Below are positions 25,439 through 30,515 of a DNA stretch of 64,000 nt, in pieces. How positions within the stretch are numbered: the stretch's first letter is position 1; every line of letters starts with the position of its first letter. The notes under the pieces were generated by a model. It had not been told where the DNA came from. It did not search any database and saw only the letters and a program-made list of their open reading frames with translations. The position numbers and the translations under genes were made by a program. The stretch lies in contig LVAO01000006.1 in the NCBI GenBank assembly GCA_001604065.1, positions 1 through 64,000 on the forward strand, written 5' to 3'. Source of the DNA: Clostridiales bacterium Firm_09 (GTDB lineage Bacteria > Bacillota > Clostridia > Christensenellales > DTU072).

Positions 25439-27016
25439 TCAGTCGTTTTCTTTGGCAGAAGAATCATCGGAGACCGCCATATCGGGGAGCAATTCTTTTT
25501 CTGAGAGCTGTCTTCTTTCGTTCAGTTCGCGAAGGATAACGTCGTGCACATCGTCATTGAGCGCATATTTTAATGTAGGAATTACGGACAGAATACAGCC
25601 GATTGCGGGAGGAATCGAAATGAGGAAAAATAAAATCATCATAATGCTGTCATACTCCGGATTCAGACGGGGCAAAAGGTCATCCGGTCCCATATTTTCG
25701 ATATAACGATTGAGCGCATCCACTTTTTCATCCGAAAATCCGACATATGCGTAGGCTGCTGCGGATAGGATTGTCGCGATACCCGTCGTCAGTTTTGCAA
25801 GAAAAGTCTGGCCTGAGAAAAAGACGCCGTCCGGTCTGGTGCCGTTTTTATATTCCTCAAAATCAACGCAATCGGCTATCATTGCGGATTGGAGGACGAT
25901 GGTGACTCCCGTCGCGCCGCCGCATACGGCAAACAATACGCACAAAACAGCAACATAAACGGGAGAGGACGCAAGTGCGCCTCTGGGCGCAATCCTATAC
26001 AGAACAAAGATAAGCGCAAACGGCAGCGCGCTCAGAAGGTTGCTGCCATTATAAAGCCTTTTTTTGGAGAACCTGCATATCATTCTGGGCGTAAACGCCA
26101 TGGCGACAAAGTTGCCGATGAAGTATCCGCCGCCCAGCACCACCAGGTAAATAAGCGCCTGCGTCGAGTCTTTGCTGGCAAAATAATAGGTAACCAAAGG
26201 CATCACGGCGAGAGCAATCAGCATTTTTGGACTGCCGAGAATACCCGACAAAAGAATCTGTCGGAATGGCTTATTGCCCCAGATGATTTTGAAATTTTCT
26301 TTCATGGTATATTTCTTTTTTGAAGAAGGAATACGCTCACGTATCTTGAAACCGCATAATTGAAACAGCACATATCCGACAAATCCGAAAATGAGCACCG
26401 TCACCAGAAAACCGTACCGTTCTCCATTGGGGCCGCCCATGGTTTCTGCCAGCTTGCCGCTTATGGCAAGCGCCACAGGAAGAATCAACAGGAGAATGAC
26501 GCCGCCGCCGAAATCACCCGCTATCCTTGCCAGCGAAAGAAGTTTGTTGCGGTCTTTATCGTCCTCGGTCATGAGCGCCGTCACTCCCCAGAGCGGAATG
26601 TCGCCTATTGTATAAGTCATGCCATAAAGCACATAAGTGAATGCCGCCCAGCCGACAATCAACGCATTGCGCGCGGCATTGCCACCTATTTCATAAAAGC
26701 CGAAATTGGTAAAGCACAGGACGGTGAAAATATAAATCGGAAGCGGAATAAAAATAAGATACGGCCTGCATTTGCCCCATTTTGTACGTGTTTTATCAAC
26801 AATCGTCCCCATCATGAAATCATTGACCGCATCCCATACCCTTGCCAGCGTCATGATGATGCCAACGGTCATCGCCGGAATCAGAATGGTGAACTGAAGA
26901 TAATACGCCAGTCCTGCGCCGATGATGTTGTAGGTAATATTCTGCCCGAGCATTGAAAGCAGATAGACGTTTCTTTCTGATTTGGTATAGGTAAGCAACT
27001 TCCTTTTCTGTTCCAT
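25439..27016 (-). CDS. GPH-family sugar:cation symporter (MFS)
   Basis: ORF to 27103; start at MEQKRK chosen because of GGAGG 8 nt upstream; VWDAVNDFMMGTIVDKTRTKWGKCRPYL. Confidence 0.88.
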   Translation of the reverse strand: MEQKRKLLTYTKSERNVYLLSMLGQNITYNIIGAGLAYYLQFTILIPAMTVGIIMTLARVWDAVNDFMMGTIVDKTRTKWGKCRPYLIFIPLPIYIFTVLCFTNFGFYEIGGNAARNALIVGWAAFTYVLYGMTYTIGDIPLWGVTALMTEDDKDRNKLLSLARIAGDFGGGVILLLILPVALAISGKLAETMGGPNGERYGFLVTVLIFGFVGYVLFQLCGFKIRERIPSSKKKYTMKENFKIIWGNKPFRQILLSGILGSPKMLIALAVMPLVTYYFASKDSTQALIYLVVLGGGYFIGNFVAMAFTPRMICRFSKKRLYNGSNLLSALPFALIFVLYRIAPRGALASSPVYVAVLCVLFAVCGGATGVTIVLQSAMIADCVDFEEYKNGTRPDGVFFSGQTFLAKLTTGIATILSAAAYAYVGFSDEKVDALNRYIENMGPDDLLPRLNPEYDSIMMILFFLISIPPAIGCILSVIPTLKYALNDDVHDVILRELNERRQLSEKELLPDMAVSDDSSAKEND

Positions 27017-27181: not shown

Positions 27182-27538
27182 TTATCCGCCGCAGGTATCC
27201 TTATGCTGATGCTCATGGCATACCGAACCGGAGGATTTCAGTTCACCCTTCAGGTACCGCTCCGCGGCAGTGCGGGCATCACCGGACGCGCCGGTAATCA
27301 CTTCTATCTTCAAATCATTGAAAATATCGATCGCACCGCTGCCCATTCCCCCGGAGATGATTACATTGACGCCCAGTCCATGAAGATAATTGGGCAAAAA
27401 ACCCGGCCTGTGTCCGGGATTCGGAACAGAAACGGCGTCCTTGACAGTTGTTCCTTCGGCAGAAAAAATCATAAAGTTTTCGCAATGGCCGAAATGTCCT
27501 GTTATGTTGGTGCCTTCGCAGGCTGCAGCTATTTTCAT
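27182..27538 (-). CDS. Dinitrogenase iron-molybdenum cofactor biosynthesis family protein (NifX/NifB-type), Cys/His-rich tail
   Basis: MKIAAACEGTNITGHFGHCENFMIF...; tail CHEHQHKDTCGG. Confidence 0.85.
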   Translation of the reverse strand: MKIAAACEGTNITGHFGHCENFMIFSAEGTTVKDAVSVPNPGHRPGFLPNYLHGLGVNVIISGGMGSGAIDIFNDLKIEVITGASGDARTAAERYLKGELKSSGSVCHEHQHKDTCGG

Positions 27539-27568: not shown

Positions 27569-28444
27569 TTATTCAATAATGTCGTTATTCTGCAGAATTT
27601 CTATTACTTTCTGAAACACGGCGCGCACTCCTCTTCCGCATGGACTGTCCAGATGCGCAATTGTGGCGCCTGAATTCACAGCTCTTACCGCCTCTGCATC
27701 GTACGGGATACTTCCCGCATAAGCGATGCCTTCTGCGGCGCAATATTCTTTTATTTTTTGGGTTATCGCCGCATTGGTATCCGCCTTGTTGACGCATACG
27801 GCAAGCGGCGTGCCGAAGAAGCGGGCTGTTTGAATGATCCTTTCCATATCGCTCAGACCAGAGATCGAAGGCTCTGCTACAATAAGCGCCATTTGGACTC
27901 CCGACAGCGAAGCGATGACCGGACACCCGATTCCCGGGGACCCGTCTATCACAACAAGCCCCTGCCCGCGATACGCCGAAGCAAGTTGTTTTTTTACTTC
28001 GGTCACCAGCTTGCCGGAGGCGCCGCCGCCCATTTTCAATTTCGCCGTAGAAAAGACGGCCCCTTCGGTATAAAGAAGAAGCTCTCCTCCCGCTTGGGCC
28101 TTCATAACGATAGCGCCGGACGGACAGACCGCCGCACATACACCGCATCCTTCACAGGAAAATGGGTCAATATGATAACCTGCATCATGTCTGACGGCAG
28201 AAAATCTGCATCGGGCTTCACAGTTGCCGCATCCGACGCATTTCTCCTCAACAATATGCGCCTTGGGCAAACCGTAATATTCTTTTGCTTGCGGCGAATC
28301 GTCCCGCCCCGCAATCAGATGAAGATTGGGCGCGTCAACATCGCAATCGGCATACGCCTCCGCCTTCAAAAGCTCAATAAACGCGCCTGCAACCGTTGTT
28401 TTGCCGGTGCCCCCCTTGCCGCTGAGAATCAGAAGCTGTTTCAT
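27569..28444 (-). CDS. MinD/Mrp-like P-loop ATPase with inserted 2x[4Fe-4S] ferredoxin domain
   Basis: SGKGGTGKTTVAGAF; CVGCGNCEARCRFSAVR...CEGCGVCAAVCPSGAI. Confidence 0.92.
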   Translation of the reverse strand: MKQLLILSGKGGTGKTTVAGAFIELLKAEAYADCDVDAPNLHLIAGRDDSPQAKEYYGLPKAHIVEEKCVGCGNCEARCRFSAVRHDAGYHIDPFSCEGCGVCAAVCPSGAIVMKAQAGGELLLYTEGAVFSTAKLKMGGGASGKLVTEVKKQLASAYRGQGLVVIDGSPGIGCPVIASLSGVQMALIVAEPSISGLSDMERIIQTARFFGTPLAVCVNKADTNAAITQKIKEYCAAEGIAYAGSIPYDAEAVRAVNSGATIAHLDSPCGRGVRAVFQKVIEILQNNDIIE

Positions 28445-29283
28445 TCTGCCGCCTCCCGCACTCTGGCAAGAAGCGCAAAAAAAAGTTCTTTTTTGGGATA
28501 ATCAACACGTACTGCGATTTTACCCTCCGAATTCAGCTTTCCCAATGCGCTGTCAAAGGGAATTTCGGCCAGAATGCCTATGCCGTTCTGCAAACAGAAC
28601 TCCCGCGAAGGATTGTTGCCATCGCCGCATTTATTGAGGACAACACCGCAAGGCTTTTTGAAAAGCAGCGCAAGTTCATAGACCATAGCCAGATTATGCG
28701 CGCCAAAAACAGTCGGCTCCGCGACAAGCACACAGTAGTCCGCTTCCCGGATGCTTTCCATCACCGAGCAGGCACTTCCCGGCGGGCAGTCGATGACCGT
28801 CAATCTTGTTTCATTTTTTACAGAATCCATCAGTTGTCGGATAACAGAAACGCCGGTCGCTTCTCCCATGTTCATGGAGCCGCAAAAAGTCTGTACACCC
28901 TCCGAAACACCTTTTTCTATCATGCCCACGATGCGTGCGGTTTCTTTTATTGCCTTCTGCGGGCAAACCAGCGCGCAACCGCCGCAGGAGTGGCAGACTT
29001 CATCAAAAACAACAGGCTTTTTGCCAAATGCCAGCGCATGGAAGCGGCAGAACTCCACGCAGACTTTGCATGCGGTGCATTCTGACAGATCAATGCGCGG
29101 CACAAGAACGCATACCTCCTTGGTTTCGGCAATCTCAGGTCTGAAGAACAGCTTCCCGTCCGGTGCCTCGACATCGCAATCGACATAGCAGGAGTTTTTT
29201 GCCGCTGCGGCAAGATTGACGGCAACAAGTGTTTTTCCCGTTCCGCCTTTTCCGCTTAAAACCGCAATTTTTTTACCTGCCAT
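28441..29283 (-). CDS. MinD/Mrp-like P-loop ATPase with inserted ferredoxin domain (paralogue)
   Basis: [34 protein letters not shown]...CHSCGGCALVCPQKAI; start adjusted from 29400. Confidence 0.92.
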   Translation of the reverse strand: MAGKKIAVLSGKGGTGKTLVAVNLAAAAKNSCYVDCDVEAPDGKLFFRPEIAETKEVCVLVPRIDLSECTACKVCVEFCRFHALAFGKKPVVFDEVCHSCGGCALVCPQKAIKETARIVGMIEKGVSEGVQTFCGSMNMGEATGVSVIRQLMDSVKNETRLTVIDCPPGSACSVMESIREADYCVLVAEPTVFGAHNLAMVYELALLFKKPCGVVLNKCGDGNNPSREFCLQNGIGILAEIPFDSALGKLNSEGKIAVRVDYPKKELFFALLARVREAAE

Positions 29284-29638
29284 GATGATGAAACCCGGGA
29301 TGTATATCCGCAAGGTACTCCAGACGATTGTCCTGATATGCGGCGAGGTTGGACTCGGCGCTTCCGGGCAGATTCTTATAAACCTTGACTTCTCCGTCAA
29401 TCAGCACCTTCGCGGCGTTTTCGCCGTATCTGGGAGCGATGATGACTTTGACTCCTTGATCAATAAGCGTTTGCGCAGCCTGTATGCCAGCTCCTCCCGG
29501 ACTGTTTGCCGCGGGATTTTCAATAAATATACTCTCTTTTGTCGACGTATCATAAAGAAGGAAATACGGCGCCCTCCCGAAAGATGGACATACTTCCGAC
29601 TTCATATCGCTTTCATTTACCGGTATGGCAATTTTCAT
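29273..29638 (-). CDS. NifX/NifB-type dinitrogenase Fe-Mo cofactor family protein
   Basis: [30 protein letters not shown]. Confidence 0.87.
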
Positions 29639-30024
29639 GTTTCACTCCTTTTATTATCGTCATCGGGCGGACAATCATTCCTCCGTCCTGCCCGGCTTCT
29701 GCGGCAGCCCATACCTCCGCATTGTCCTCCTCTGCCGTCGCACAGAAAATATTCTCCGCCTTCAATCAGAAGGGTTTTTCCGTTGACCAATGAATCCGCG
29801 ATTTTTTTGCGCGCAGCGTCATATATCCCCTGCACAGTCGTACGTGCGACGTTCATATGTTCCGAGCACTCTTCCTGCGTCATTCCTTCAAAATCAATCA
29901 GGCGGACGGTTTCATATTCATCGACGGACATGACAATCACACCTTCCGGCGTGCTTCCTATGGGGCCGAAACGATTGATTTCGGGAAGACAGCATACTTT
30001 TCTCCATTTCTTCGGTCTGGGCAT
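29635..30024 (-). CDS. DUF134 family HTH protein
   Basis: [71 protein letters not shown]; Cys-rich tail. Confidence 0.88.
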
Positions 30025-30069: not shown

Positions 30070-30285
30070 TCACACCTTGTTGCTTTGCGACGGATTGACC
30101 GGCTGATTCTGTTTTTGAACGGATTGCGATTGGTTGGCTATATCAAGATACCTTCTTAAGCAGAATCTACGTCCGAATCCGAAACCTCTTCCCTGTACGG
30201 AAGACGCATTGCTGTTGCAGAATCCAAGTCGGCGTCCTGTCATTGTTCCCAGGCCCAACGGACCGGTACCATCTCTCATCGGCAT
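30070..30285 (-). CDS. DUF5320-like small protein
   Basis: MPMRDGTGPLGLGTMTGRRLGFC...; start adjusted; SD AAGGAGGTG 7 nt upstream. Confidence 0.8.
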   Translation of the reverse strand: MPMRDGTGPLGLGTMTGRRLGFCNSNASSVQGRGFGFGRRFCLRRYLDIANQSQSVQKQNQPVNPSQSNKV

Positions 30286-30310
30286 CGGCAAACACCTCCT
30301 TGTTTGATTC

Positions 30311-30356
30311 TGACATATGTCAATTATTATTATACTCTGTTTCTGACAGATGTCAA
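30311..30356 (-). promoter_or_regulatory. Promoter TTGACA-16 bp-TATAAT with two TGACATnTGTCA palindromes (30311-30322 and 30344-30355)
   Basis: Minus strand ATTGACATCTGTCAGAAACAGAGTATAATAATAATTGACATATGTCAGAA. Confidence 0.75.
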
Positions 30357-30489
30357 TAACTATTTGATATTTTTTTATTTTGCCTTTTAATGAAATCAAA
30401 AAAGCAATTCCTGAGGCAGTTGCCATCCTGCACTGCCCCATGACAGGAATCGTCCTCCCAAGAAAATATCAGCTGCTCATCTTCTGCCC

Positions 30490-30515
30490 CGGGCGGCATA
30501 ATTCCGCCCGATTTT
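30490..30515. terminator. Hairpin downstream of parC, T-run on the plus strand only
   Basis: CGGGCGGCATAATTCCGCCCG then ATTTTTCTT (plus). Confidence 0.4.

Follow-up and report, generated by a model that had tools for sequence, protein, structure and literature searches.

Twin palindromes at the promoter of a DUF134 operon are probably the operators of its own DUF134 protein

Which regulator reads the two nearly identical palindromes that surround the promoter of a DUF134 operon in the Clostridiales bacterium Firm_09? The locus was analysed in a 64-kb stretch of DNA, hereafter called the window. On its minus strand the promoter reads AGTTATTGACATCTGTCAGAAACAGAGTATAATAATAATTGACATATGTCAGAATC, and the arrangement TTGACA-16-TATAAT agrees with the consensus at 12/12 positions with a 16-bp spacer, which is the top score of a promoter scan between positions 26000 and 34000. 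Sequence inspection and promoter scan also bore out the sequence-only reading that one palindrome overlaps the -35 region and the other the predicted start site, which is deduced from the -10 hexamer, with centres 33 bp apart. The cores are palindromes of the type TGACA-N2-TGTCA: that of O1 is TGACATCTGTCA (30344-30355), with 5-bp arms and an imperfect centre, and that of O2 is the perfect palindrome TGACATATGTCA (30311-30322). The two 17-mers indeed differ by one base when read on the minus strand. Twin palindromes had thus been recognised correctly, but the operator is longer than had been claimed, since a position weight matrix (PWM) extends it to about 22 bp. The proposed DUF5320-DUF134-NifX gene order likewise stood, but the label "Mrp" had to give way to a pair of MinD/ParA-type ATPases into which 4Fe-4S motifs are inserted. 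The features of the locus are as follows.

30351..30356, minus strand: -35 hexamer TTGACA, part of the left arm of O1 (promoter scan)
30329..30334, minus strand: -10 hexamer TATAAT, between O1 and O2 (promoter scan)
30339..30360, minus strand: operator O1 in the 22-bp frame, containing the -35 hexamer; kept in DUF134-bearing relatives (22-bp PWM)
30306..30327, minus strand: operator O2 in the 22-bp frame, over the predicted start site; kept in DUF134-bearing relatives
30295..30300, minus strand: Shine-Dalgarno sequence AGGAGG of the first gene (sequence)
30070..30285, minus strand: small DUF5320 protein of 71 aa, the first gene of the operon (Pfam PF17253, E=6.6e-15)
29635..30024, minus strand: DUF134 protein of 129 aa, the proposed binder of O1 and O2 (Pfam PF02001, E=2.9e-23; Sigma70_r4_2, E=2e-4; AlphaFold2; Foldseek)
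29273..29638, minus strand: NifX-type protein 1, Nitro_FeMo-Co (Pfam PF02579, E=2.9e-22)
28441..29283, minus strand: MinD/ParA-type ATPase 1 with inserted 4Fe-4S motifs (domain search)
27569..28444, minus strand: MinD/ParA-type ATPase 2 with inserted 4Fe-4S motifs (domain search)
27182..27538, minus strand: NifX-type protein 2, Nitro_FeMo-Co (Pfam PF02579, E=1.4e-18; C-terminal part of the NCBIfam MrpORP model, below its cut-off)

Apart from O1 and O2, exact matches to TGACATNTGTCA were found neither in the window nor in the 1.44-Mb assembly, which is 79% complete. When the full 20-bp pattern was searched in the same genome with up to three mismatches, O1 was the sole match because O2 exceeds three mismatches. 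A terminator-like GC hairpin (30490-30510) lies between the operon promoter and a gene similar to the A subunit of gyrase or topoisomerase IV.

Taken with the comparisons described below, the palindromes are very probably operators of the DUF134 protein encoded in the operon, which would repress its own synthesis and that of its neighbours. The recurrence of the twin-palindrome arrangement in front of related gene clusters in well over a hundred bacteria strongly suggests that it serves as the switch of DUF134. At the level of sequence, the comparisons showed that the sites exist, that they hold a constant position relative to the promoter and that they are conserved in about 150 independent DUF134 loci. 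For instance, 7 of the 40 genomes sampled from the same family carry DUF134 above the Pfam cut-off, and all seven possess at least one site. The twin palindrome at exactly 33 bp occurs in three of the 40 genomes (G000, G013 and G024), all DUF134 carriers, each time directly 5' of DUF5320-DUF134, and the scan of the 40 genomes detected the pair in none of those that lack DUF134. As to the other carriers, G002 combines a perfect O2 with a decayed O1, G005 shows a single site before DUF134 and no DUF5320, and both G023 and G016 have the sites TGACATATGCCA and TGGCATATGCCA; in G016, a pattern scan located the promoter on a separate contig that overlaps the start of the DUF134 contig.

The search was extended to 80 DUF134 loci of GTDB representatives from Clostridia, Negativicutes, Synergistota and Sphaerochaeta and to further loci sampled at the level of the order and of the phylum. 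When every inverted 5-mer with a spacer of 0-12 was counted without bias in 95 non-redundant 1-kb regions upstream of DUF134, GACAT/ATGTC ranked first (52/95 regions; shuffle mean 0.05) and TGACA-N2-TGTCA second (41/95; shuffle mean 0.25), and the next best dyad reached 9. The resulting PWM describes a 22-bp palindrome of 27 bits, GTTATTGACAT followed directly by ATGTCAATAAC, whose central ATAT is nearly invariant (1.6-1.8 bits per position). Among 121 loci encoding a DUF134 with an xR[T/S/A]T recognition helix, 116 have a site and 97 have paired sites, 22-41 bp apart and mostly at 33, 34, 36, 38 or 39 bp (35 bp in L017). Helical phase is not kept between spacings of 33, 36 and 39 bp. In 91 of the 97 paired loci an exact TTGACA -35 hexamer forms the left arm, in 95 a -10 element matching in at least four of six positions follows at 16-18 bp, and an exact TATAAT is found in 59. 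With the motif fixed and its variable base masked, 64 further independent loci were examined as a held-out set: the site was recovered in 35 of 39 loci with an xR[T/S/A]T helix (0/39 in shuffles) and in 7 of 25 loci with other helices. The palindromes are therefore very strongly conserved upstream of orthologous operons; a lack of such conservation had been named as an outcome that would speak against the proposal. At three Desulfosporosinus loci (L080, L087 and L097), two operator pairs stand upstream of DUF134, which suggests that two promoters in series are under control.

The placement of the sites in whole genomes was studied in a sample of 396 genomes of the order, 76 of which contain DUF134. 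The pair of outer arms, TGACATATG-N18..33-CATATGTCA, occurs in 18 genomes, namely 16 times directly 5' of DUF134, once 5' of DUF5320 at a contig end and once 5' of a NifX-type gene, and its association with DUF134 is strong (Fisher p=2e-12 over the 396 genomes). The reversed outer-arm pattern, used as a control, gave 0 matches in the same genomes. A pattern scan with the half-site TTATTGACATATGYC yielded 36 places in 33 genomes, 28 of which have DUF134 (p=9e-18). Twenty-five of the 36 places are at DUF134/DUF5320 promoters and seven at NifX-type/ATPase (NifX/Mrp) genes; the others are at DtxR-like genes (2), at a Crp-like gene (1, L339) and at a place without a gene (1). Since both patterns are almost confined to the promoters of DUF134, DUF5320 and NifX/Mrp genes, they define a small regulon. 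The operon of the window, a DUF134/NifX/Mrp operon whose promoter carries the 22-bp operator, belongs to this proposed DUF134-operator regulon. Near-exclusive siting at this gene set and the covariation of site and recognition helix were likewise demonstrated by comparing sequences. Small DtxR-like genes were observed directly behind a DUF134-type operator (L346:1501-2419 and L348:968-1515), in one case followed by DUF5320, and a DtxR-like gene is a possible extra member of the regulon. A few sites were seen in genomes without detected DUF134 (G095, G203, G154 and G133). In G095, which is 97% complete, an operator pair precedes a NifX-ATPase operon (L320/L350), and no DUF134 exceeded the cut-off.

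The protein itself is a clear member of its family (PF02001, 82.7 bits with a gathering score of 27). AlphaFold2 predicted the helix-turn-helix (HTH) at residues 34-81 with confidence and the tail with low confidence; the recognition helix ARTTVQ occupies residues 60-65. The best fold matches in Foldseek were sigma region 4 (SigR and SigE; 2h27 on -35 DNA) and the DeoR operator complex 7bhy, with an rmsd of 0.5-0.9 over 40-48 residues and E-values above 0.1 because the domain is small. Moreover, Sigma70_r4 Pfam matches recur among DUF134 proteins. With sigma-70 region 4 (2h27, Sigma70_r4_2), DUF134 shares the HTH fold (rmsd 0.7-0.9 over about 47 residues) and the TTGACA in the target. However, the other sigma regions are lacking: region 2, which binds core and the -10 element, was not found, and only HTH matches of the region-4 type were obtained. 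The palindromic target would fit a dimeric repressor that competes with sigma. DeoR is a repressor that acts on a palindromic operator. The Bacillus subtilis protein (SorC/DeoR-type; PDB 7bhy / 8r7y) has the nearest solved HTH by sequence (hmmsearch of DUF134 to 7bhy, E=5e-5), and its fold is among the best matches. In contrast to DeoR, which has a sugar-binding effector domain, DUF134 ends in a short tail with cysteines or, in some proteins, is fused to a NifX-type domain; the 129-aa protein of the window carries a DeoR-type HTH, and domain searches of it returned only DUF134 and weak sigma region 4 matches and no C-terminal sugar-binding domain. C53 is conserved in 156 of 169 DUF134 proteins and a cysteine near residue 11 in 143 of 169, and the tail usually contains three or more cysteines. 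Sixteen long proteins are fusions of DUF134 to a NifX-type (Nitro_FeMo-Co) domain (e.g. L234:3001-3717, L247:3001-3774 and L248:3001-3735), which suggests that the fused domain is a sensor or partner of the DUF134 regulator.

The operator varies with the recognition helix of DUF134, an indication that it is DUF134 that binds there. Proteins with xRTT/RST helices are accompanied by the operator TTGACATATGTCAA, enterobacterial proteins with SRQTLA helices by TTGGCATATGCCAA-like sites and the SRPTLS protein of a Bacteroidota plasmid by the site TTATGAACATTTGTTCATTA. Most SRPTFQ loci showed no recognisable site of this type, and a search of this branch for a common operator by dyads, k-mers and 20-bp palindromes found none, except for TTATTGACATATGTTCATAA-type sites at some loci of the SRPTF[F/H] group. 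Among proteins of the xR[T/S/A]T class, the identity of residue 62 predicts the fourth base of TTG[A/G]CAT outside the -35 hexamer. A G at this base was found in 11/11 loci with S or A at residue 62 and in 7/86 loci with T. Residue 62 is the strongest protein column, and the switch also occurs inside one genus (G023 vs G024). The pattern was first spotted by eye and then tested. In held-out loci the rule was reproduced with the training criterion (3/3 vs 3/14, p=0.03) but did not reach significance with a looser one (p=0.24), and the DUF134 tree, which yielded only one starred independent pair, was too weakly resolved to support a formal phylogenetic test. The residue-62 rule can be regarded as good but not final evidence that DUF134 binds the sites. 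Thus, the earlier proposal of DUF134 as candidate regulator is supported by the co-occurrence of the sites with DUF134 and its gene partners and by a site that follows the recognition helix.

How could the switch work? The half-site TTATTGACAT and its reverse complement form the 22-bp palindrome, which a DUF134 dimer would read through its sigma-region-4-like HTH. The half-site contains TTGACA, so that a sigma-4-like helix is a natural fit as its reader; the operator may be viewed as two -35 words placed back to back, one of which would be the real -35 hexamer in O1. As the -35 hexamer lies within O1 and the predicted start site within O2, bound DUF134 is expected to block RNA polymerase, and repression would result from competition with sigma and from blocking of the start site. 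That DUF134 represses is read from this geometry and from the near-consensus promoters. The repressed set would comprise its own operon (DUF5320, DUF134, NifX-type proteins and Fe-S ATPases) and, in relatives, also separate NifX-type genes. The signal is most likely metal or Fe-S status, a guess based on the conserved cysteines, the Fe-S carriers among the gene partners and the fusions of some DUF134 proteins to NifX. A wider picture can be drawn only tentatively and is somewhat doubtful as a whole: DUF134 proteins might be widespread metal- or Fe-S-responsive repressors that read back-to-back -35 words through a sigma-region-4-like helix and compete with sigma, with the NifX-type protein, sometimes fused, acting as a cluster sensor in a feedback loop on Fe-S carriers.

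The main rival of autorepression by DUF134 is a regulator of the CRP/FNR family such as HcpR, which would bind the palindromes while DUF134 is merely co-regulated. The published HcpR consensus, wyTTGACnnnnGTCAArw (PMC1274295), overlaps the DUF134 operator: O2 fits TTGACnnnnGTCA, the 22-bp consensus agrees fully with that of HcpR, and the HcpR palindrome TTGACnnnnGTCAA is matched by the DUF134-operator consensus, with a G in place of the right outer A in the window. Moreover, regulators with cNMP-binding domains exist in most of these genomes, a CRP/FNR-family protein was present in 22 of the 23 DUF134- or site-bearing genomes searched, and one half-site precedes the Crp-like gene mentioned above. 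However, the four central positions, ATAT, hardly vary (about 1.7 bits each) where HcpR tolerates any base, and the mapped sites stand at DUF134/DUF5320/NifX genes and few others, with no recognised hcp gene behind them, whereas the HcpR regulon, which is governed by another protein family, has hcp/frdX targets and no linkage to DUF134. Furthermore, G214 (91% complete) has a site pair and no cNMP-binding match, while G001, G014 and G038 possess cNMP-binding regulators and neither DUF134 nor the pair. Together with the variation of the site with the DUF134 helix, this makes HcpR or a relative a poorly fitting and very improbable explanation. Slightly less improbable, but still unlikely, is another, unlinked regulator common to these anaerobes, with DUF134 acting elsewhere. 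Such a protein would account for the few sites in genomes without detected DUF134 and for the two sites before DtxR-like genes, but its site would have to follow the recognition helix of DUF134 and to accompany DUF134 from Bacillota to Gammaproteobacteria, in which DUF134 plus NifX is the shared element.

DUF134 could also bind the sites and activate transcription, or change between activation and repression with a ligand. An overlap with the -35 region and position +1 is compatible with a MerR-like or dual mode, and the spacing between the sites varies; yet most of these promoters already come close to the consensus (in 53/97, TATAAT stands exactly 16 bp downstream of the -35 hexamer), and the position of O2 downstream of the -10 hexamer suits blocking better than recruitment. 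Activation is the least implausible of the alternatives, but less likely than repression. That the repeats are a coincidence or promoter sequence only has a negligible probability. Indeed, TTGACA is a -35 element in itself, so that a left arm as in O1 is not surprising; however, the extreme enrichment, the recovery in held-out loci and the empty reversed control argue against chance, and O2 is conserved though it is not a promoter element. Conservation refutes this reading.

Repression by DUF134 of its own operon would be of an already known kind, that is, autoregulation through a repressor and its operator, whereas what appears to be new is the family of the protein, the operator and the use of a sigma-4-like helix to read -35 palindromes. 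In the text of the open-access literature, nothing was found on the function of DUF134, on its DNA target or on a GACATATG(TC) operator, and the main text of a C. thermocellum DAP-seq paper mentions neither DUF134 nor CATATG. A study of MrpORP and the orange protein of Desulfovibrio deals with the Fe-S chemistry of the proteins (PMC6345978). The Mrp/NBP35 and NifX-type Fe-S carriers of that system are related to the products of the operon in the window, but the present finding concerns transcriptional control by DUF134. With a predicted operator, a recognition-helix rule and a small regulon of DUF134, DUF5320, NifX-type proteins and Fe-S ATPases, the proposed role of DUF134 as regulator of Fe-S/NifX carrier genes can be tested directly.

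DUF134 (PF02001, UPF0251, COG1342) is common in anaerobes; a sample of 300 genomes from the phylum contained 193 with a match above the cut-off. The site tracks it across Bacillota, Synergistota, Spirochaetota, Bacteroidota and Gammaproteobacteria, and DUF134, NifX and the site are also found together in Treponema, in Bacteroidota and on plasmids of Klebsiella, Citrobacter, Morganella, Proteus and E. coli, a constant company that again speaks for DUF134 as the binder. Because the logic recurs on enterobacterial plasmids, the proposal is testable in common laboratory bacteria. On several of these plasmids (L240, L241 and L243-L245), a DUF134-NifX gene pair is associated with the TTGGCATATGCCAA-like operators; the plasmids are conjugative in E. 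coli, Klebsiella and Citrobacter and non-mobilizable in Morganella and Proteus.
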